A stretch of 64,000 nt of DNA from Trileptium ribeirensis (Eukaryota; Nematoda; Enoplea; Enoplida; Thoracostomopsidae): assembly GCA_030248225.1 (NCBI GenBank), contig JASANE010012761.1:1-64000 (forward strand). Direction: 5' to 3'. Of the stretch, positions 13,845-44,071 are shown piece by piece; positions within the stretch are counted from its first letter, which is position 1; the number at the start of each line of letters is the position of its first letter. A model generated the notes under the pieces. It saw only the letters and a list, made by a program, of their open reading frames with translations, made no database searches and was not told the DNA's origin. Position numbers and translations under genes: made by a program.

Positions 13845-14235
13845 CCCTAAAGTTGACATGGGCCGAATCTTACATACATGCTCATAGGGGGACAGTAGAT
13901 TGGCCCCTGAGGCTCGGACTGCCATTCGGGGCCCAGCCGCTCCCCATGGGACATAACCTGACCCCTCAGACGTTTCGCACCCCTGCACCCCCTCTTCGGC
14001 GCATGAAAAACTTTGGTAATAACAGGCAGAAAACTGGTAAAAATGTTTAGCTTGGGCGGAAATGTGAAAAACTGGGGAAAACTGGCAAAAGGTATGATAA
14101 AACAGGTACAATGTGTGTCAAAAAATTTCAAAATTTGACTTCCGAGAATCTTCAAATATTTCGTACCCCTGATGACCTCCCCCCGATGTGGCAGTATGAC
14201 TGACACCATAACCAAATATTCTGATTGTTTTCGTA
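13845..14235 (+). repeat. Dispersed repeat flanking the env element
   Basis: Its last about 129 bp (14105-14233, from GGTACAATGTGTGTCAAAAA to GATTGTTTTCG) are nearly identical to 23748-23881 on the other side of the env element, same orientation. An upstream portion, CCCCTGAGGCTCGGACTGCC near 13904, matches the reverse complement of about 42625-42650, where A/T-rich TTTTGGCAAA-type runs also follow. This points to a dispersed family with at least three copies here. Confidence 0.65.
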
Positions 14236-14271
14236 AAACTGTGTCAATTGCTATAAATGCGAAATTGTTAC

Positions 14272-14894
14272 TGTAACGATGTTAAACTGAAATTAAATAA
14301 CGATGATAGGGTTGAGTGTTAACTAAATGTGTGTTTGAAGAAGGAAAAGCAAATGAATGTACTGAAAGGCTAATGTAATCTCAATCGGTAGTGTGGGAAT
14401 AGGTTTAATTAACCGTGGAAGTAGCACTCAGGACTTAAGATAACGCTCGTTACTACGTTACCAATACACAATCACAACACACTACAAACATAATAAATGT
14501 ATAAGTATATATGAATTGATTGAGATAAGAAGAGGGATCGTAAGATCCAATGCCTATCCTTAGAAATATGAATATATAATATATGTGACACACTAACACT
14601 AAATACTCACAAGCACCAGTAGATTTTCGCTCGCAAAGAAGTATACGTATATTATTATTGATTGAGTTAAGAAGAGGGATCGTAAGATCCAAGTCCTAGC
14701 CTTAGATTGAATACACGTATACGCAATATCGGAGCACCAGCGTGCTCTCGCCACAACACTGTAGACTGAGTTCCACAGAGGCTAGGTTCAGAAATGGAGC
14801 ACCAGTGTGCTCTCAATAAGTGCTTAAACTGGAGCACCAATGTGCTCTCAACCGAATAGAACAGAAGCACTAATGTGCTCTCAAAAGTACTCAA
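14272..14894 (-). repeat. Inverted partial LTR (R-U5 only)
   Basis: This is the reverse complement of the U5 and most of the R region of the LTRs at 16450-17811 and 22239-23583. It starts TGTAACGATG, which is the inverse of their CATCGTTACA end, and runs as far as the second or third R hairpin. It contains no U3. It joins the env gene at about 14886-14898 across AGTACTC, a 7-base phrase present in both partners. Confidence 0.88.
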
Positions 14895-15400
14895 CGGAGA
14901 CAATCATTGAAAGTACAAGAGTTGGTATTCTGGTCCGCACTTCAGAAAAATTTGTCCATGTAACACGTATTCAACCAGGTAGTAAAGTCACGAATGCCGA
15001 TAAGCTACCAGTACCAAAACATGGTGTAATGTTTTTCGCTCACTCTAACTTTTCAATGATAATCGTGGAAGACCAAGTACTCATGGCCAGTTTTCGCCCA
15101 GTACAAGATTTCGAAGTCTTTATGCAGATTATTGGAAACTTTTCGTTTAATTTTTCTGAAATAGCCCCACCTACTTGGAGTAACCTAGGGGATGTGAAGT
15201 ACCACTCCTCGTTAACCGATCAGCGCTTAAAACGGGAACTTATGTATCTTATTCACGATGATTACGACTTTCCTGAGGAAGTCATGTATGCTATAGCTGT
15301 GTTGATCCTAGGAATAGTGTTACTGTGTGTATTATATGTGTTATGGAGAAAATGGCGTAAACTATTAACGTGCTTATGTAAAAGACAGAAGTTCTGTTAA
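14840..15400 (+). pseudogene. Envelope C-terminal part, 5' end lost
   Basis: From about 14898 this frame matches residues about 371-540 of the full envelope at 19531-21153, including the membrane-proximal region and the single transmembrane segment (YAIAVLILGIVLLCVLYVLW). The first about 19 codons are read from the inverted LTR and are not envelope. The cleavage site and fusion peptide are missing. The cytoplasmic tail differs slightly from the other copy, ending in CLCKRQKFC. No promoter or signal peptide in this fragment would allow normal envelope function. Confidence 0.88.
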
Positions 15401-15431
15401 CGCAAGAGGTTTAAATACTAAAGGGATCGAA

Positions 15432-16276
15432 ATGATAGAGACTCCAAGCATACAACAAAAGGTTCAAACGCACTACAGGGGCGCATGTGGCCGTCCAGCC
15501 ACCGTTCCAGAAGTTTGTGAGCTTCCCTTCTGTTGTGGCAGAGTGCCCAATATGACCAGTAAGCAACAAATAAACACACACGTGTCCGAGACCGTATTTA
15601 CGATGGGTAAAGCTGCGTCCCAAATTGATGTCACTATAGAAGGTGAACCATTCACCGGAATCTTAGATACCGGTAGCAATATAACCATAATTTCAAAAGA
15701 AACTCTTGATAAGCTTGGGCTAACGTCCGAAGACCTGGTTCCGGTCCCTTGGACTTCAGCTGTAGGAATAACAGGACACAATTTGCAAATGAAGGGAGCT
15801 GTTAAGGTTGCCCTTGGCATCGGTAAACGAAACTTTGATTTTCATGTTTTCGTGTCCAATGAGTGTACACATTCTGTAATAATAGGTGTTGACGTATTGC
15901 GTCAACTTGGCACAGTGACCATCAACTACCAAAAAGAACAAGTAGTAATAGATGGCGTACCTTACCAACTAGGAGGAACCGATTTCAAAACCCTGCGTTT
16001 GGAAACCAATACGACTATCCCACCCCGAACTGAGGTGGTAATACCCTGTGAGATTGAAGGGTTCAATTAAGAGGGTGATGTTATTTTTGAGCCGAGTAAT
16101 AAACTGGATCAATTTGATTTACAGGCAGCCCAAATTTTAATATCAAACGACACGAGAATTACTATCCCGGTTAGGTTATTTAACAAGAATACAAAAATTT
16201 ATAAAACTAGGGAAGTCGGGAACCGAAGTCTGCTATTGATTTTCGGGCCTGTAATGCCAAATATAAAAAAGTCCTA
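15432..16276 (+). pseudogene. Retroviral-type aspartic protease, copy 1
   Basis: Retropepsins cleave the Gag-type polyprotein during particle maturation and act as homodimers. The frame is open from 15432 to a TAA at 16068-16070, and homology to copy 2 then continues to about 16276. The active-site triad is intact (GILDTGSNITII), followed by the flap region and SVIIGVDVLRQLG, the usual second conserved block. The part after the stop corresponds to the beta-rich linker that in gypsy-type pol lies between protease and RT; RT itself does not follow. Relative to copy 2, this copy keeps DTG and the frame but has gained the internal stop (TAA where copy 2 has TAC). It starts 17 bases after the env stop in the -1 frame. 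Confidence 0.85.
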
Positions 16277-17003
16277 ATTGATTGAACGACCGTAAATACC
16301 GCCGCCTTTCCATGTTGTGGTAGAAATTGGGTAACCTGTTACTTTTCCGAACGGCCCATGATTAGCATTTTTATAGGTTTGGCTTATAATAAATATATAC
16401 ATTTACAGTCCTAATGTGTTAAAAGCAACTGTAGTGCGAGCAGTTGCTATGTAACACACCACCGTTCGCGCAGTTGCAGATTTTATGCGTAATTTTTGGC
16501 CATTTTATTTGCTTAATGTTCCATCTGTCTGTACTGTATTGCTGTTTGTATGTATATAAGCATAAGCATGTACGTATACGTTTAAGTAAGAGCATTTATA
16601 CATGTTTATATGCGTAAATATGCGCACATTTTGTTTCAAATAGACAACTTCAGTTGCCGTTTGCTTTAGATTTTAATAGATTTTTAACTCGAAAAGTTCT
16701 GTTAAACATAGAGCTTTGATTTATATCTTCGCAAGCCAAACTCTTAGTGCCACCTGCTGGGTTAGCAATATTTGTGGATTTGTTAGAAATATTTGTGGAT
16801 TTACGATAAATTTATGTAAATGTCAAATCTGGTTGTTAGTGAGATTTTTAGGTACAAATAGAACTTTTGCGGTTGCGAAAACAGTAAACATCAAAAAATA
16901 TTTCTCTGTGTAGGCTTCTAAAAATAACTGGAATGTAGCAATATTTCGCACAATTCTAAGAATAACTCCCAGCAGTCTAGGATTTCCTAGATAGTTTGAC
17001 ATG

Positions 17004-17061
17004 TATAAAAGATCAATCAGGTACTGCTCAGGCGCTCAGTCTCAAAGTGCCGATCTACTGG
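17004..17061 (+). promoter_or_regulatory. LTR core promoter and splice donor
   Basis: TATAAAA at 17004-17010 is the only good TATA box in the LTR and would place the start of transcription near 17035. CTACTG/GTAAGTG follows, with the exon boundary after 17060, a near-ideal donor about 25 bases into R. The donor is kept in the diverged relative (CTTACCAGT on the minus strand near 26124), but in the 3' LTR copy it is GTAATTG. It would let U5 and gag be skipped to express env. Confidence 0.6.
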
Positions 17062-17124
17062 TAAGTGTTCACTTTATTCTTACGACCAAGCGGTCTCCTT
17101 TATAACTTAAACAATTTTGCGAGC

Positions 17125-17358
17125 GAGCACGTTGGTGCTTCTATACAGCGTTGTTGACTGAGTTGCACGTATCTGAGAGCACATTGGTGCTTCAGTTGAG
17201 TACTTTTGAGAGCACATTAGTGCTTCTGTTCTATTCGGTTGAGAGCACATTGGTGCTCCAGTTTAAGCGCTTATTGAGAGCACACTGGTGCTCCATTTCT
17301 GAACCTAGCCTCTGTGGAACTCAGTCTACAGTGTTGTGGCGAGAGCACGCTGGTGCTC
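17125..17358 (+). repeat. Array of six short hairpins in R
   Basis: Six copies of GAGCAC-NNNN-GTGCT(C/T) begin at 17125, 17177, 17210, 17243, 17278 and 17343. Each forms a 5-6 bp stem with a 4-base loop; the loop varies (GTTG, ATTG, ATTA, ATTG, ACTG, GCTG) while the stem is kept. The same array is present in the LTR at 22239-23583, inverted at 14720-14890, and in both arms of the 25.4-27.2 kb element. Being in R, they would lie at both ends of the genomic RNA. Confidence 0.8.
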
Positions 17359-17813
17359 CGATATTGCGGTATTCAATCTAAGGCTAGGACTTGGATCTTA
17401 CGATCCCTCTTCTTAACTCAATCAATAATAATATACGTATACGGCTTTGCGAGCGAAAATCTACTGGTGCTTGTGAGTATTTAGTGTTAGTGTGTCACAT
17501 ATATTATATATTCATATTTCTAAGGATAGGCATTGGATCTTACGACCCCTCTTCTTATCTCAATCAATTCATATATACTTATACATTTATTCTGTTTGTA
17601 GTGTGTTGTGATTGTGTATTGGTAACGTAGTAACGAGCGTTATCTTAAGTCCTGAGTGCTACTTCCACGGTTAATTAAACCTATTCCCACACTACCGATT
17701 GAGATTACATTAGGCTTTCAGTACATTCATTTGCTTTTTTTTCTTCAAACGCACATTTAGTTAACACCCAACCCTATCATCGTTATTTAATTTCAGTTTA
17801 ACATCGTTACACT

Positions 17814-17830
17814 TGGAGGTCCCACCGAGA
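17814..17830 (+). other. Primer binding site, tRNA-Gln type
   Basis: TGGAGGTCCCACCGAGA begins two bases after the LTR end. It is complementary to the conserved 3' end of animal tRNA-Gln including CCA, over 17 bases. This fixes the LTR boundary and shows that the element is, or descends from, a tRNA-primed retroelement. Confidence 0.85.
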
Positions 17831-18015
17831 CCCGATTCTTTATATTCGGGTTCAACGAATTCGGAAAGGATTCACAAGTATTTGTAACCATAAATACCTA
17901 GCACATAAATACGGCCGCTTATCAGCTTCGAAGTACCCAAAATCTCTACAATTTAGAGTTAACGGACGACGAGCAAGATAGTTCTTTCTTTGAAACTGAT
18001 CTAGAAAACCAACAA

Positions 18016-19474
18016 ATGGATAGTTTAATTAAAAATATCGGCCAACTCGATCATGTTATCAAGGACCTAGCTACTAGATTAGACGATGGCTTAAGGGATC
18101 TTTCAGGCGAAGTTGACGAGGTATCTCAACGAGTCCGCCTAGGAAACGATACAAATCTTTCCATCTCACCTTTCCGTGGAGATTTAACTGGCCAAGATTT
18201 CAACTCCTGGTTAGAAAACTTTAACCTTATTTGCGATGCTAAAATAATTGATGACAATATGAAGCTTAGAATGCTACCCGCATACCTGAGAGACAGAGCA
18301 AGGGATGCGTATGAACGGGTCCCCGATGCAGCAAAGAGAAACTTTAACTCTGAGAACCGCCTTATTAACTCCAGAGTGGTCAATGTTTCATGAAGCAGCA
18401 CTTGAGCAGTGCCATCAAATGAGTGGTGAGACAGTGACCGCATATCTTAAGGCGATTAAGAAAGCCTGCCGTAGCATATATCAGCATGAAAATGATGCGA
18501 CCTTACAAAGGAAAATTATATCCCGATTCTTTAATGGATTGCGATCACCGGAGATGAAGCAACAAGTATTCCGGGATATGCCAAACACACTGAGGAAAGC
18601 AGAAGACCTTGCCCAGAAACTGGATATGCAATCCGTTCTTTGTGGAAATGTATCCTCACCAGTCGGATTGACCAGTGTTACTAATAATTTAGCACGGGAT
18701 CAAACCTTACAAAAGGTAGCACAAGGAATGGAACTGCTAGCTAGGAACCAAAAGGACATAGCAAATACTTTGCAGCGAGTTAGGAATAACCAACCAAGGA
18801 GAAACAACCGCCCATCTACTGTTAGTACAAATCAAAACCGGCCACCCGAGGATCGACCTCGTCCTAATAACTTTGAACAAAATTTCTCACCTCGCGGACC
18901 ACGCTGCTTCAATTGCGGTAGATTAGGCCACATGGCAATGGGTTGCTTGCTTGGAGGAAACCACACTATGACAAATAATATCAGTCGCCAACCAATCAGT
19001 GGTTTTCAACCTGGTAATAATTTTAGACAAAATTTCAGGAAACTTCCGGTCAGTACTAACCTTAGACCAAATATCCCCAACGTTGGCCACATGGCCAATG
19101 CTCCCAATACCAGACACGTTGTTGCAACAGCAATGCTGCATCCTATGCTCAAAGAAACGGAACACAAAGCTTCCAATGAAGTTATATATAGAACTGGGTT
19201 AGAAAAGCTTCGCAGGGAGGTGGATGCTCTTACCAAACAGAATTCCTTACTCGTTGAAAAGGCTTACCCACAATTAGTTGGTGCAATTGCGGTAAAATCT
19301 AAACCATCTGAACCAACTAGTATTGAAGTACAAACTGACCCGCAAAAAATACCTAAAGTGCCCAATGAGCCAAAGGCCAAACTAAGATATGGCCTAACAT
19401 CAGTTCGACCACTTTTGGTCCTACTCTCCTTGGTTACGCTAATGGCTCCAGCGCAATCCACAGTAGCTAGCTAA
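18016..19474 (+). pseudogene. Gag, one internal frameshift
   Basis: Gag forms the particle core and packages RNA. The first frame (18016-18393) starts MDSLIKN, has a coiled-coil-like N-terminus, then FRGDLTGQDFNSWLENFNLI, a capsid-type entry similar in style to gypsy gag (F.G....F..W...F). It passes to a second frame at about 18345-18370, which continues TPEWSMFHEAALEQ and on to a zinc knuckle CFNCGRLGHMAMGC (CX2CX4HX4C, 18905-18946). The last about 70 codons after the knuckle end in a strongly hydrophobic stretch (LLVLLSLVTLMAPAQS) that looks like a secretory signal peptide rather than gag; it may belong to the start of env (see 19531). The shift could be a lesion or a programmed event. Confidence 0.8.
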
Positions 19475-19484
19475 ACCGCTTACA

Positions 19485-19514
19485 TCCTCATATTTTCCCT
19501 TCTTTTGGTGTAGG
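19485..19514 (+). promoter_or_regulatory. Candidate 3' splice site before env
   Basis: A pyrimidine-rich run (TCCTCATATTTTCCCTTCTT) leads to GTGTAG at 19508-19513, immediately followed by the env frame and its first ATG at 19531. Paired with the R donor at 17060 it would remove the primer site and gag and yield an env message. Errantiviruses of the gypsy group express env by such splicing, which makes the reading plausible. Confidence 0.5.
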
Positions 19515-19530
19515 ATTTGTTCCCGAAGGC

Positions 19531-21153
19531 TTGGTCATGACAGCTGCAGATTCGGTTTATGTACCTATACTTGTCCATACAAGACATGAACAGCATGAAG
19601 CCTGTAAAACTGCGGTAAGGTATTCGGTCAACCCTAAGGATTGTAATTGTACAGGTCAACAATTTTTACATGATCAGACGCGGAAAGCCCTTAGTGAGCT
19701 GAGTGAAAATTTTCGCAATTCTATTGATCCGGCATTTTATGAGGCTCTCTTGCAGAGTATTTGCACCGACAAACCGTTTACCTGTACCCTTGCTCATCCA
19801 AAACGACAAAAACGTTTTGTCGCGGTTGCCTTAGCGGGAGTTGCCTCCGTTGCAAGTATAGGTTTGGGAATCGCTAATAGCATTCAAATGTCTCATCTTA
19901 AACCTAAACTCATAGCACTACAGAATTCGGTACGAGTATTTGGGGAACAAACCATCCGCAACGAAGAAGCAATAGCACAACTGACCGTTAATCAGGAACG
20001 AATATATGCCATCACACACGACATTGTCCGTTATATGGAACAAACATCTGTCGCCTTAGAATGCACACTCATGAAAACCGTAGCTTGGACCCACTTTATG
20101 GCACAAACTAACTTTTTCTTAAACGATGTTAGGAATGTAGTCCGCGCTATGGTTTTGGCAGGTAATAGCGGAACTCTATCGTCAGAAATCTTAACCACTT
20201 CGCAAATAAAATTGTTAGTCCAGCGAGAACCCACATTGCACGACACGATATATTTACACGATCCCAGTCTGTTCTATCATTTCGTTAAAGCCTACGCAGT
20301 AATAATGGATATAATGAACACTAGATTCGGACTCATATTAGAGATCCCCCGCATAAGAGTCAAGAATATTCTACCGCTTATGAGAGTTGTTAATGTAGGA
20401 TTTAATAACATAGCCTCTAACACAACTGTGAGATTGTCGCTTCCACAGTTCATTACATATGATACTGCACTAAATAAGGGTTACTTTTACGAAGTTAAAT
20501 CGGATGGCTGCCACAAAACTCCAGGCCTGTGGTATTGTAATAGAGCGGCATTGCCAACGAGCACCAGTGACAGATGTTTGCATGATTTGAGAAATTCATC
20601 AGTGAAAAATTCTTGCACATTCGATATCAAACAGTACTCGCCAGAGACAATCATTGAAAGTACAAGAGTTGGTATTCTGGTCCGCACTTCAGAAAAATTT
20701 GTCCATGTAAAACGTATTCAACCAGGTAGTAAAGTCACGAATGCCGATAAGCTACCAGTACCAAAACATGGTGTAATGTTTTTCGCTCACTCTAACTTTG
20801 CAATGCTAATCGTGGAAGACCAAGTACTCATGTCCAGTTTTCGCCCAGTACAAGATTTCGAAGTCTTTATGCAGATTATTGGAATCTTTTCGTTTAATTT
20901 TTCTGAAATAGCCCCACCTTCTTGGAGTAAGCTAGAGGATGTGAAGTACCACTCCTCGTTAACCGATCAGCGCTTAAAACGGGAACTTATGTATCTTACT
21001 CACGATGATTACGACTTCCCTGAGGAAGTCATGTATGCTATAGCTGTGTTGATCCTAGGAATAGTGTTACTGTGTGTATTATATGTGTTATGGAGAAAAT
21101 GGCGTAAACTATTAACGTGCTTATGTGAAGTTATGTTAACGCAAGAGGTTTAA
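19531..21153 (+). CDS. env: Class I-like envelope fusion protein
   Basis: A 540-residue intact frame for a probable membrane fusion glycoprotein. A basic cleavage site (KRQKR, residues 91-95) is followed directly by a glycine/alanine-rich hydrophobic fusion-peptide-like segment (residues 96-118). Then come a heptad-type helical region (about 125-175), several cysteines, sequons such as NTT, NSS and NFS, and one C-terminal membrane anchor (about 501-523) with a basic tail. Layout and cleavage-site position resemble baculovirus F and errantivirus env proteins; that is inference from architecture. No signal peptide follows the first ATG. A signal-like hydrophobic stretch lies just upstream in the gag frame (19414-19470), one frame away, so the true N-terminus may be shared with, or shifted from, gag. 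Its place before the protease, not after pol, is unusual. Confidence 0.85.
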   Translation: MVMTAADSVYVPILVHTRHEQHEACKTAVRYSVNPKDCNCTGQQFLHDQTRKALSELSENFRNSIDPAFYEALLQSICTDKPFTCTLAHPKRQKRFVAVALAGVASVASIGLGIANSIQMSHLKPKLIALQNSVRVFGEQTIRNEEAIAQLTVNQERIYAITHDIVRYMEQTSVALECTLMKTVAWTHFMAQTNFFLNDVRNVVRAMVLAGNSGTLSSEILTTSQIKLLVQREPTLHDTIYLHDPSLFYHFVKAYAVIMDIMNTRFGLILEIPRIRVKNILPLMRVVNVGFNNIASNTTVRLSLPQFITYDTALNKGYFYEVKSDGCHKTPGLWYCNRAALPTSTSDRCLHDLRNSSVKNSCTFDIKQYSPETIIESTRVGILVRTSEKFVHVKRIQPGSKVTNADKLPVPKHGVMFFAHSNFAMLIVEDQVLMSSFRPVQDFEVFMQIIGIFSFNFSEIAPPSWSKLEDVKYHSSLTDQRLKRELMYLTHDDYDFPEEVMYAIAVLILGIVLLCVLYVLWRKWRKLLTCLCEVMLTQEV

Positions 21154-21170
21154 ATACTAAAGGGATCGAA

Positions 21171-22066
21171 ATGATAGAGACTCCAAGCATACAACAAAAG
21201 GTTCAAACGCACTACGGGGGTGCATGTGGCCGTCCAGCCTCCATCTGCTATGCTGTTCCACATCATCATCCACCTACAAATTTAACAGCCACCGTTCCAG
21301 AAGTTTGTGAGCTTCCCTTCTGTCGTGGCAGAGTGCCCAATATGACCAGTAAGCAACAAATAAACACACACGTGTCCGAGACCGTATTTACGGTGGGTAA
21401 AGCTGCGTCCCAAATTGATGTCACTATAGAAGGTGAACCATCCACCGGAATCTTAGATATCGGTAGCAATATAACCATAATTTCAAAAGAAACTCTTGAT
21501 AAGCTTGGGCTAACGTCCGAAGACCTGGTTCCGGCCCTTGGAGTTCAGCTGTAGGAATAACAGGACACAATTTGCAAATGAAGGGAGATGTTAAGGTTGC
21601 CCTTGGCATCGGTAAACGAAACTTTGATTGTCATGTTTTCGTGTCCAATGAGTGTACACATTCTGTAATAATAGGTGTTGACGTATTGCGTCAACTTGGC
21701 ACAGTGACCATCAACTACCAAAAAGAACAAGTAGTAATAGATGGCGTACCTTACCAACTAGGAGGAACCGATTTCAAAACCCTGCGTTTGGAAGCCAATA
21801 CGACTATCCCACCGCGAACTGAGGTGGTAATACCCTGTGAGATTGAAGGGTTCAATTACGAGGGTGATGTTATTTTTGAGCCGAGTAATAAACTGGATCA
21901 ATTTGATTTACAGGCAGCCCAAATTTTAATATCAAACGACACGATAATTACTATCCCGGTTAGGTTATTTAACAAGAAGACAAAAATTTATAAAACTAGG
22001 GAAGTCGAGAACCGAAGTCTGCTATTGATTTTCGGGCCTGTAATGCCAAATATAAAAAAGTCCTAA
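21171..22066 (+). pseudogene. Retroviral-type aspartic protease, copy 2
   Basis: Same gene as at 15432-16276. The start ATG is 17 bases after the env stop, in the -1 frame relative to env, and the frame is open back to about 21129, overlapping the env end. This copy carries about 16 extra codons near the N-terminus (around 21236-21290). It has two lesions absent from copy 1: the active-site DTG is changed to DIG, and a one-base loss near 21535 breaks the frame (21171-21554, then 21572-22066). Its 3' part is open where copy 1 has a stop and continues through the protease-RT linker to a TAA at 22064-22066. No RT follows. Confidence 0.85.
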
Positions 22067-22238
22067 TTGATTGAACGACCGAAAGTACCGCCGCCTTTCC
22101 ATGTTGTGGTAGAAATTGGGTAACCTGTTACTTTTCCGAACGGCCCATGATTAGCATTTTTATAGGTTTGGCTTATAATAAATATATACATTTACAGTCC
22201 TAATGTGTTAAAAGCAACTGTAGTGCGAGCAGTTGCTA

Positions 22239-23583
22239 TGTAACACACCACCGTTCGCGCGGTTGCAGATTTTATGCGTAATTTTTGGCCATTTTATTTG
22301 CTTAATGCTCCATCTGTCTGCACTGTATTGCTGTTTGTATGTATATAAGCATAAGCATGTACGTATACGTTTAAGTAAGAGCATTTATACATGTATATAC
22401 GTGTAAACATGCGCATATTTTGTTTCAAATAGACAACTTCAGTTGCCGTTTGCTTTAAATTTTAATAGATTTTTAACTCGAAAAGTTCTGTTAAACATAG
22501 AGCTTTGATTTATATCTTCGCAAGCCAAACCCTTAGTGCCACCTGCTGGGTTAGCAATTTTGAGAAATATTTGTGGATTTACGATAAATTTATGTAAATG
22601 TCAAATCTGGTTGTTAGTGAGATTTTTAGGTACAAATAGAACTTTTGCGGTTGCAAAAACAGTAAACATCAAAAAATATTTCTCTGTGTAGGCTTCTAAA
22701 AATAACTGGAATGTAGCAATATGTCGCACAATTCTAAGAATAACTCCCAGCAGTCTAGGATTTCCTAGATAGTTTGACATGTATAAAAGATCAATCAGGT
22801 ACTGATCAGGCGCTCAGTCTCAAAGTGCCGATCTACTGGTAATTGTTCACTTTATTCTTACGACCAAGCGGTCTCCTTTATAACTTAAACAATTTTGCGA
22901 GCGAGCACGTTGGTGCTTCTATACAGCGTTGTTGACAGAGTTGCACGTATCTGAGAGCACATTGGTGCTTCAGTTGAGTACTTTTGAGAGCACATTAGTG
23001 CTTCTGTTCTATTCGGTTGAGAGCACATTGGTGCTCCAGTTTAAGCGCTTATTGAGAGCACACTGGTGCTCCATTTCTGAACCTAGCCTCTGTGGAACTC
23101 AGTCTACAGTGTTGTGGCGAGAGCACGCTGGTGCTCCGATATTGCGGTATTCAATCTAAGGCTAGGACTTGGATCTTACGATCCCTCTTCTTAACTCAAT
23201 CAATAATAATATACGGCTTTGCGAGCGAATATCTACTGGTGCTTGTGAGTATTTAGTGTTAGTGTGTCACATATATTATATATTCATATTTCTAAGGATA
23301 GGCATTGGATTTTACGATCCCTCTTCTTATCTCAATCAATTCATATATACTTATATAATTATTCTGTTTGTAGTGTGTTGTGATTGTGTATTGGTAACGT
23401 AGTAACGAGCGTTATCTTAAGTCCTGAGTGCTACTTCCACGGTTAATTAAACCTATTCCCACACTACCGATTGAGATTACATTAGCCTTTCAGTACATTC
23501 ATTTGCTTTTCATTCTTCAAACACACATTTAGTTAACACCCAACCCTATCATCGTTATTTAATTTCAGTTTAACATCTTTACA
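22239..23583 (+). repeat. Right LTR of the env element
   Basis: Same structure as 16450-17811: putative TGTAAC start, TATA box near 22796, six-hairpin R array about 22902-23136, and TTTACA end at 23583. It differs by scattered substitutions, a U3 deletion near 22559 and a weakened splice donor. The flank TTAC at 23584-23587 matches the one left of 14272. Confidence 0.8.
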
Positions 23584-23618
23584 TTACATTACTCGAAAAA
23601 CCATTTATAAATACAACT

Positions 23619-24010
23619 GGGAGGATAATGAATAAACACGCATAGTAGCACATGGTGTAATAGAGACTATACAACTTTGTCAAGGCTTCTGATTTTTATT
23701 CTACCCAATTATCTACGAACCGTTAGATATGTAAGTCCCTCAAAATAGGTAAAATGTGTGTCAAAAAATTTCAAAATTTGACTTCCGAGAATCCTCAAAT
23801 ATTTCGTATCCCTGTATCCCTGATGACCTCCCCCCGATGTGGTAGTATGACTGACACCATAACTAAATTCTGATTGTGTTCGGGAGGATAATGAATAAAC
23901 ACGCATAGTAGCACATGGTGTAATAGAGACTATACAACTTTGTCAAGGCTTCTGATTTTTATTCTACCCAATTTTCTACGAGCCGTTAGATATGTAAGTC
24001 CCTCAAAATA
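23619..24010 (+). repeat. 129-bp direct duplication around a dispersed repeat
   Basis: 23619-23747 and 23882-24010 (from GGGAGGATAATGAATAAACA to GTCCCTCAAAATA) are nearly identical. Between them lies a 134-bp copy of the repeat also found at 14105-14233. The pattern is X-R-X, immediately outside the right end of the env element. Confidence 0.85.
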
Positions 24011-25382: not shown

Positions 25383-27216
25383 TTCGTGTAACGATGTTAG
25401 GTTTAGGCCTTAATTAAGACGTATATAAAGAAGAAATCTCAAACGAATGTATTAAAAAGCCAATATAGTCTCAATGGATAGCGTGGGAATAGATTTAAAC
25501 TCGGAGGTAGCACGCAGGACTTAGGTAACGCACGTTACTACGCTACGAATTACCCACCAACAACACGCTACAACAAAATAAAATGTATAGTATACATGAA
25601 TTGATTGTGATAAGAAGAGGAACCATAAGATCCAATGTCTATCCTTAGAAATACAAATATAGAATATATATGACACACAAACAACTAAATATTCACCAGC
25701 ACAAGTAAATTTTCGCTCGGAAAGACGTATACGTGTATTAGTATCGATTTAGTTACGTAGGTGATAGATGATCCAAGTCCTAGCCTTATGGAATACGCGT
25801 ATGCGCAATATCGGAGTACTAATGTGCTCTTGCTATAACACTATAGACTGAGTTCCACAGGGGCTAGGTTCAGAAGTGAGCACTAGTGTACTCTCGACGA
25901 AAAGGGACAGAAGCACCGATGTGCCCTCAAACTCGTATGCAAATGGTGCACCAACGTGTTATCAAGAATAGAAGCACCAACGTGCTGTTGGTATAATTGA
26001 AGCGCTATTGAGGTCTCACTTAAGTGCAACTCAGTCAACACCGCCGTATTGCCGCGCCAATGTGCTCTCAAAATCTTGAAGTTACAAAAGAGACTGCTTG
26101 GTCGTAAAACTAAAATAAACACTTACCAGTAAATCGGAGCTTTGACACTCTGGCCTCGATGATTGCCTGGAATAGTCTTTTATACCCGCAGAGCTGTCTA
26201 TGAAACCCTGCTGGGTGTAATTTTTTGATTATGAGGAATATTGTGTAATTTCAGCTGAAAAATTAACAACATTCGAGTTATTATTAGAAGCCTGCCACAA
26301 CAACTTTATTTTTGATGATTATTGTCTTCTCAGTAGTAAATCGTTCTATTTTTAATTAAAATTATAGCGGCTGACATTATAACAAAAATATGCTGGGCTA
26401 ACAGAACTGATCATCAAACACGGAAAATGCTGCTACAAGTACGACATTTTTTCGATGTTTACGATATGAGGACACGGAATCTATTTTAGTTAAGCATTTT
26501 GACAAAAGAATTGTGCTTTTAGTTATACTAAAAGTATAAGACGTTTGTCGTTTCTCTTCCTGAAAACACATTTGTGCTTCTTCTGTAACTGAGCTTAAGA
26601 GTATGTCTGTGCTCCATTTGCATGCAAATTTGAGAGCACATCGGCGCTTCTGTATCTTTCCGTTGAAAGCAAACTGGTGCTATAGTTGCAAGCTTATGAG
26701 AGCACGTTGGTACATCAGTTAGAGAATTTACTGAGAGCACACTCAGTCTTCAGTGTTGTGGCGAAAGCACACTAGTGTTCCCATATCACGTATACTTGTA
26801 TTCAATCTAAAGCTAGCACTTGGATCACACGATCATCTTCGTAACTCAATCAATACTAATAATAGACGTATACGCCTTTGCGAGAAAAAATTTACTGGCG
26901 CTTGGGTGTATCTAGTGTTTGTGTCATATATATTATATATTCATATTTCTAGGATAGGCATTGGATCTTACAATCCTTCTTCTTATCTCAATCAATTCAT
27001 ATGTACTTATACATTTATTTTGTTATAGTTTGTTGTTGATGTGTTATTCGTAACGTAGCAACGATCTTTACCTCAAATCTTGAGTGCTACTTCCAGTTTA
27101 AATCTATTCCTATGCTACCGATTGAGATTACATTGGCCTTTTAGCACATTCGTTTGAGTTTTGTTCTTCAAATACACACGCCTTATTAATGCCAAACCTT
27201 AACATCGTTGCATTCG
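25383..27216. mobile_element. Coding-free inverted-LTR relative of the env element
   Basis: 25387-about 26400 is an inverted, diverged LTR of the same family: U5 end TGTAACGATG, hairpin array with AGCACC..TGTGCTC motifs, donor CTTACCAGT near 26124, TATA inverse CTTTTATACCC near 26177, and U3-like sequence beyond. About 26530-27212 is the forward R-U5 portion, ending in CATCGTTGCA. The centre (about 26400-26530) matches nothing else here. Both outer ends are U5, flanked by TTCG at 25383-25386 and 27213-27216. There is no gag, env or protease, so it would need proteins supplied by others. Confidence 0.8.
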
Positions 27217-43998: not shown

Positions 43999-44071
43999 GG
44001 TCCCGAGGGGGATTCGAACCCCCGATCTTTGGATTAGGAGTCCAACGCCTTATCCTCTAGGCCACCGGGAC
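43999..44071 (-). tRNA. tRNA-Arg (anticodon CCT)
   Basis: On the minus strand the sequence folds into a complete cloverleaf of 72 nt plus discriminator. Acceptor GTCCCGG pairs with TCGGGAC (one G:U), the D arm is GCCTAGAGGATAAGGC, anticodon stem TTGGA/TCCAA has loop CTCCTAA, the variable loop is AGATC, and T arm GGGGG/CCCCC has loop TTCGAAT. The internal promoters match well (box A TGGCCTAGAGG, box B GGTTCGAATCC). It decodes AGG. No intron. The discriminator base would be C, which is unusual for tRNA-Arg. A T-rich terminator, TGTTTTGGTTTTTTTATT, follows on the minus strand, suiting RNA polymerase III. Confidence 0.95.

Follow-up and report, generated by a model that had tools for sequence, protein, structure and literature searches.

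Results

A gag-env-protease copy in Trileptium ribeirensis

A stretch of 64,000 nucleotides from the nematode Trileptium ribeirensis (assembly GCA_030248225.1, contig JASANE010012761.1, positions 1 to 64,000 of the forward strand; hereafter the window) was analysed for the retroelement at 17812–22238. With its flanking long terminal repeats (LTRs), this copy consists, in sequence, of an LTR, a primer-site-like stretch, gag, env, protease (PR), a short remnant and an LTR. A previous description made from the letters alone (the sequence-only reading) had reported the order gag-env-protease without reverse transcriptase (RT), which was borne out by the open reading frames (ORFs), by Pfam scans of the window, and by the LTR and primer site. 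No match to RT, RNase H (RH) or integrase (IN) was obtained in the scanned ORFs of 17812–22238, and an overlooked RT was ruled out by the ORF list, the Pfam scan and comparison with longer copies. As detailed below, the copy is very probably an internally deleted, non-autonomous member of a large Ty3-type LTR family.

All genes and LTRs of the copy lie on the forward strand. Its 5' LTR (16450–17811, left limit uncertain), which is also the 3' LTR of a partial copy further upstream (copy 1), is 97.99% identical to the 3' LTR (22239–23583) over 1345 aligned columns. Position 23583 is the end of the LTR copy, while the start at 22239 is set by the TGTAAC...GTTACA ends only; U3 varies among genomic copies, leaving the left limit unsettled. 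The R-U5 part and leader were also located in six further contigs. Within both LTRs, 33-bp tandem repeats with GAGCACANTGGTGCT cores were observed (17174–17292 and 22952–23070). The primer-binding-site-like TGGAGGTCCCACCGAGA (17814–17830), which we take to correspond to tRNA-Gln, is carried by L053 and L054 too, just before gag.

The gag region (18016–19474) contains the CX2CX4HX4C knuckle attributed to it (CFNCGRLGHMAMGC; zf-CCHC E 0.0031, 18 bits, under the Pfam cutoff of 20.8), but is split over two frames (ORFs 18016–18393 and 18305–19474). The last part of the gag frame contains a signal-peptide-like stretch (19382–19471), which is out of frame with env in this copy and in frame in full copies. 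The env ORF (19531–21153) has the full 540 residues previously reported and, according to the ORF and the env alignment, includes a cleavage site, a fusion-peptide-like stretch and an anchor. Of the protease and its linker, remains are present at 21171–22066 (ORFs 21171–21554 and 21572–22066). This protease had been described as DTG-type; its active site reads D-I-G and its frame is broken, ending at 21554, whereas DTG is found in copy 1 (ORF 15432–16070), with Pfam matches above cutoff to gag-asp_proteas (9.2e-10) and RVP (2.1e-8).

Conservation of the gene order in the host genome

The host genome (687,459,628 bases in 20,229 contigs) was searched, yielding at least 82 env matches among the best candidates scored; 12 of the 82 listed lie in open frames of 2,416–2,465 codons. 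Full-length matches cluster near 95, 75, 64 and 58% identity. The comparison drew on 30 env loci with 1.5 kb on either side and on 20 pieces of 7 kb taken downstream. Protease follows env in all 30 loci and gag precedes it in 28, the two misses (L006 and L026) being on contigs that begin 157 nt or less before env. Across the 20 downstream pieces, PR was found in 19, RT in 18, IN in 17 and the N-terminal part of a helicase in 13; L048 gave no match and L041 is RT-less. The env frame stays open for 1,356–1,379 further codons in 12 of these pieces, and none of the 20 contains a second env. Piecewise Pfam scans after env in L031, L044 and L038 returned protease, RVT_1, RT_RNaseH, Integrase_H2C2 and rve, that is, the Ty3/gypsy (Metaviridae) pol layout of RT and RNase H followed by integrase, of which the window copy has none. 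LTRs and a primer site, as in Ty3/gypsy elements, are present in the window, L053 and L054. In all seven copies examined, the frame passes from gag to env through a hydrophobic, signal-peptide-like stretch; a fusion-peptide-like stretch comes next, and a membrane anchor is located ahead of PR.

Neither the Retroviridae-type order gag-pol-env nor an env downstream of pol, as in errantiviruses, was found, 28–30 of the 30 loci having the order of the window copy. The gag-env-protease order was thereby confirmed as a trait of a large Ty3-type LTR family. The sequence-only reading had asked whether other copies have the order gag-PR-RT-IN-env, which was sought in these loci and not encountered, and for longer partners with RT and IN, which are present in the host genome with related LTR, leader and primer site. 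One of the histories it offered, an ancestor with env between gag and pol and a copy that then lost the rest of pol, agrees with the host-genome copies; the other, in which env was captured upstream of a pol that had already been truncated, is unnecessary.

Ratios of nonsynonymous to synonymous divergence (dN/dS, Nei-Gojobori) were 0.04–0.11 for env in five within-subfamily pairs and 0.02–0.04 for RT-RH within subfamilies; the N-terminal part of the helicase is less constrained (0.18–0.20 in two pairs). Between subfamilies, env dN was 0.14–0.18 in three pairs, with dS saturated. Judged by these ratios, env is under purifying selection, and the low values for env and RT-RH indicate that the gag-env-pol arrangement is old and has been kept. 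In the open-licence PubMed Central (PMC) literature searched, neither a Ty3 element whose env separates gag from pol nor a paramyxovirus F within a retroelement was found.

Origin of the window copy and of other copies without RT

Homology of the window copy to pol of four longer copies (L031, L033, L035 and L036) stops at 21974, which places a first deletion junction at 21974–21975. The piece that extends up to 22195 sits 7.5 kb (C17089) and 7.4 kb (C18194) before the LTR stretch, and an 11-bp overlap marks the second junction (22185–22195). In C13006, the same two stretches occur in reverse order, 13.1 kb apart. By these comparisons, the window copy requires at least two deletions; RT to integrase are absent, as the sequence-only reading had stated, but more is missing than that. 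It carries an LTR and a primer site of its own but neither RT nor integrase, and related longer copies occur in the genome. These are the features of an internally deleted element, an origin that we consider highly likely. The copy would have been moved by the enzymes of a helper, the candidates being the longer copies whose LTR, leader and primer site are related to its own.

The copy is part of a compound (14272–23583) that is composed of an inverted LTR piece, an env end with PR, an LTR, the gag-env-PR copy and an LTR, with R-U5 ends outermost on both sides. The inverted piece (14272–14898, reverse strand) forms the left end, its R-U5 end pointing outward, and is 98.2% identical to both LTRs. 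Copy 1 (14899–16449, forward strand) comprises the env end, the DTG protease and the remnant up to the LTR, and is 98.18% identical to 20645–22238 over 1542 aligned columns, with 61 gap columns. The repeats inside the compound (two LTRs, the inverted piece and two env-PR copies) are all 98.0–98.2% alike over aligned columns, which fits an origin of the whole compound at once; one insertion of an aberrant reverse-transcription product would be the simplest reading. Copy 1 therefore does not add a second, independent instance of the order. The family trait that had been argued from it is real genome-wide, but the argument itself was weak, copy 1 holding the env end and PR only. A check for target duplications of 4–6 bp, made for the window compound only, gave TTAC at both flanks (14268–14271 and 23584–23587), a possible duplication whose four bases may coincide by chance.

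Short repeats, 95–98% alike, lie beside the compound (14099–14217 and 23742–23868; 23619–23747 and 23882–24010) and are possibly a host repeat that received it. An older inverted LTR pair was observed at 25389–26361 (reverse strand) and 26629–27209 (forward strand), about 73 and 80% identical to the window LTR, with U5 ends outward and 267 bp apart. The window also contains a tRNA-Arg (CCT) gene at 43999–44071 (reverse strand).

A separate RT-less sublineage (L020, L022 and L025–L029) was identified, whose homology to L019 ends at the same PR base in all seven copies; in the two copies compared with L020, the next 1.19 kb are 97.8 and 98.9% alike. Env is open in all seven, four of which share the same 1,192-codon frame. 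Mean env dN/dS was 0.208 among the seven (21 pairs), compared with 0.092 among four fuller relatives (6 pairs). Since env dS among the RT-less copies (0.077) is not below that to fuller copies (0.070), recombination with fuller copies, or repeated origin, may explain part of the pattern.

Helicase and NADAR frames downstream of pol

In all 12 pieces with open pol, a second long frame opens 407–1,033 nt past the pol stop. This frame spans about 1,180 codons in C11945 and about 1,169 in C15084 and carries AAA_11 and AAA_12 domains (superfamily 1 (SF1), IGHMBP2-like). The next ORF encodes NADAR (1.8e-37 in L052, 1.9e-35 in L051; TIGR02464, 2.9e-40). When two match lists were compared by eye, a NADAR match began 9.7–10.4 kb past the start of env in 21 contigs, which represent several subfamilies, and nearer, at 6.1 kb, in C17906; no NADAR match is listed for many contigs with env, among them C8298, C6631 and C11509. 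In the host genome, 150 NADAR matches were listed, and other elements may carry NADAR as well. Examples are C9184, C9357, C9988 and C17622: some NADAR matches fall within open frames (2,199 and 1,677 codons), and several contigs have two in succession.

In C11945, LTR stretches at 593 and 21410 lie on the same strand and are 92% alike over 331 of 355 bases, which suggests a full element length of about 22 kb, although the pairing is not certain. The LTR stretches are 13.7 kb apart in C8298, and the distance from NADAR to the LTR stretch is 13.3 kb in C18612 and 11.2 kb in C10512, so that element length varies. No ORF of at least 150 codons (120 in L055) was detected in the roughly 2.8, 3.8 and 3.0 kb after NADAR of L052, L055 and L051. 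Past NADAR, a conserved stretch of about 69 nt was observed in otherwise diverged non-coding DNA (L052:2925–2993; L056:1086–1154, 94%; second copy at 1695–1748, 78%).

Identity of the envelope protein

An R-x-K-R cleavage site is invariant in all 15 aligned env sequences. At E values up to 0.1, 11 of 15 members scanned matched PF00523 (Fusion_gly, paramyxovirus F), with a best value of 1.4e-7. When seven members were scanned separately, the match was collinear in five, extending from residue 87–89 to 341–357 (about 250–270 residues) at E 1.4e-7 to 2.2e-5; L002 matched weakly (0.0066) and L019 not at all. The gathering score was passed by L018 alone (30.6 versus 29.8 bits), five of the seven falling below the cutoff and one having no match. 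For the window env itself, Pfam gave no Fusion_gly match, and the search by sequence against the PDB gave none. The sole PDB match of the env profile was Fusion glycoprotein F0 at the cleavage site, not significant at E 0.76. Searches of a set of 5.8 billion proteins with env alone and as a profile returned nothing useful among the 7,995 word-sharing candidates scored each time. An AlphaFold2 model built from two window sequences was unusable (mean predicted local distance difference test score, 34).

From these profile matches, env is likely a class I, paramyxovirus-F-like protein, which suggests capture of the envelope from a paramyxovirus-like virus. It is conceivable, if rather doubtful, that env is instead a remote member of some other group of class I fusion proteins (the baculovirus F or errantivirus type, for instance) and scores with Fusion_gly by chance. 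Such a chance score would be in keeping with the gathering score being reached by one member in seven, with the four of 15 members and the window env that lack a match, and with the poor structural model. Against it, the match is collinear from the cleavage site onward in five of seven members; the only PDB profile match, though not significant, likewise fell on F0 at that site, and the three families listed at E 0.1 for the 15 members include none of baculovirus-F type, a distant link being possible.

A second Ty3-type lineage with env between gag and protease

The RT relatives are Ty3-type, with up to about 55% identity. Of the 120 listed out of 7,871 matches, one, P0051, has a full env between CCHC and protease. 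This 2294-residue Ty3-type protein from a 9.5-kb contig combines a CCHC gag, a signal-like stretch, a full env, an anchor, protease, RT and integrase in one frame. Its gag aligns pairwise with that of the window family (1e-22, 2e-23 and 8e-22), and its env matches Monjiviricetes_fusion (4.5e-18). In an RT tree (midpoint root, weak deep nodes), nine sequences of the family, one of which (L049) has 37 X in place of stops, group in a single clade with support of 0.988, and P0051 lies outside it, paired with P0026, a Branchiostoma protein (support 0.968). Because P0051 falls outside the family clade and has a different env, the slot between gag and protease was probably filled twice, in separate Ty3 lineages. 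Searches of viral contigs with env, the env profile, an RT piece and the P0051 env gave no informative match. P0114, P0085 and P0089 were considered as further gag-env-pol cases and rejected, no full env being present between CCHC and PR in the compared stretches; P0114 was observed to have a single hydrophobic stretch there (residues about 435–760).

Discussion

Our preferred explanation, which we consider very likely, is that the window element is a deleted, non-autonomous member of an old Ty3-type family, that the long copies of this family encode Gag, Env and Pol in this order within a single open frame upstream of distinct SF1-helicase and NADAR ORFs, and that this frame is translated into one membrane-threaded precursor. 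We infer the precursor from the topology of signal, anchor and frame. The gag-env-pol frame would be translated as a single chain whose Gag part remains cytosolic, while the internal signal peptide would direct the F-like Env ectodomain into the lumen of the endoplasmic reticulum and the Env anchor would halt transfer, leaving PR-RT-RH-IN in the cytosol behind the Env tail. Signal peptidase would then separate Gag and Env, a furin-type protease would cleave Env, and PR would release Pol; the window copy would rely on the enzymes of longer copies with related LTR and primer site.

Several points weigh against this reading. One frame is no proof of one protein, and splicing could remove or isolate env. 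More than 400 residues of Gag would already have been synthesized by the time the signal appears, and retroviruses do not usually make Gag, Env and Pol in equal amounts. Moreover, the full length depends on one LTR pair, that of C11945 (92% alike over 331 of 355 bases), other contigs giving other spacings.

Splicing is the main rival to the precursor. The order and the family would be the same, with env removed to express gag-pol, or with a spliced RNA starting near the env signal peptide, so that no Gag-Env-Pol precursor would matter. The Env proteins of retroviruses and errantiviruses are made from spliced RNA. For simple retroviruses, this is also stated in the available excerpt of a published account (PMC10309623). 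A spliced env RNA of the present family would, however, run on into PR-RT-IN, no stop intervening in 12 of the 20 pieces, and no conserved synonymous block was found at the gag-env or env-PR joints in three copies (best of 861 windows, 9 of 15 codons, about 0.0016 per window). Expression by splicing is accordingly possible but the less probable course. That helicase and NADAR are neighbours or later insertions would accommodate the LTR pairing found in one contig only and the NADAR matches elsewhere in the genome, but is very improbable given the helicase after pol in 13 of 20 pieces and the steady distance of NADAR from env across several subfamilies (21 contigs). An artefact of assembly, or a rearrangement private to the window locus, which is indeed rearranged (an inverted LTR piece, two deletions), is ruled out as the source of the order, to the point of near certainty, by its recurrence in 28–30 of 30 loci, in diverged subfamilies and open frames, and in P0051.

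A broader proposal builds on the precursor, and we see its chances as evenly balanced: giant Ty3-type retroviruses of about 22 kb would make Gag, a paramyxovirus-type F and Pol as one membrane-threaded polyprotein, with their own helicase and NADAR; in a further Ty3 lineage, a Monjiviricetes-type glycoprotein would have come to occupy the env slot independently, and gag-env offspring lacking RT would have spread as satellites. The model for the likeness is the flaviviruses, which make a membrane-threaded polyprotein.

Among known systems, the errantiviruses or gypsy-type insect endogenous retroviruses resemble the window family in having a Ty3-type pol, LTRs, a tRNA primer site and a class I envelope acquired by capture. 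In the errantiviruses, env is baculovirus-like and follows pol, whereas the env of the window family is placed between gag and protease within a single frame and has its profile match in Fusion_gly. Capture of the errantivirus env from a baculovirus is described in the excerpt available of PMC12440569. P0051 shares the gag-env-PR-RT-IN layout in one frame but differs in its Monjiviricetes_fusion env and in an RT outside the clade. The Anakin elements of mosquitoes, BEL/Pao elements with a chuvirus-type glycoprotein (PMC7642597, excerpt), are likewise LTR elements with an envelope from a negative-strand RNA virus, but belong to BEL/Pao and not to Ty3. Gypsy elements of Ectocarpus carry NADAR at the N-terminus of Pol (PMC12477816, excerpt); they are Ty3-type with NADAR, as is the window family, in which NADAR forms a separate ORF after the helicase ORF. 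LTR elements of bdelloid rotifers bear additional ORFs (PMC5408684, excerpt) and thus share extra genes with the window family, while the gag-env-pol order was not seen in that excerpt. With paramyxovirus F (PF00523), the env has in common a collinear profile match from the cleavage site and a similar length and layout; it differs in that the match is weak, near the family cutoff, and in that env is embedded in a retroelement frame.

In textbooks, retroviral gene order is a constant, with env last and expressed from a spliced RNA. A conserved gag-env-pol frame would be a different route to a surface glycoprotein and enzymes from one RNA, and Pol would be tethered to the tail of the envelope protein. 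That the slot between gag and protease can take an entry protein is shown by two Ty3-type lineages whose envelopes are unrelated. The family further connects a retroelement with genes for NADAR and an SF1 helicase, and its RT-less gag-env copies offer comparative material for packaging in cis versus in trans.

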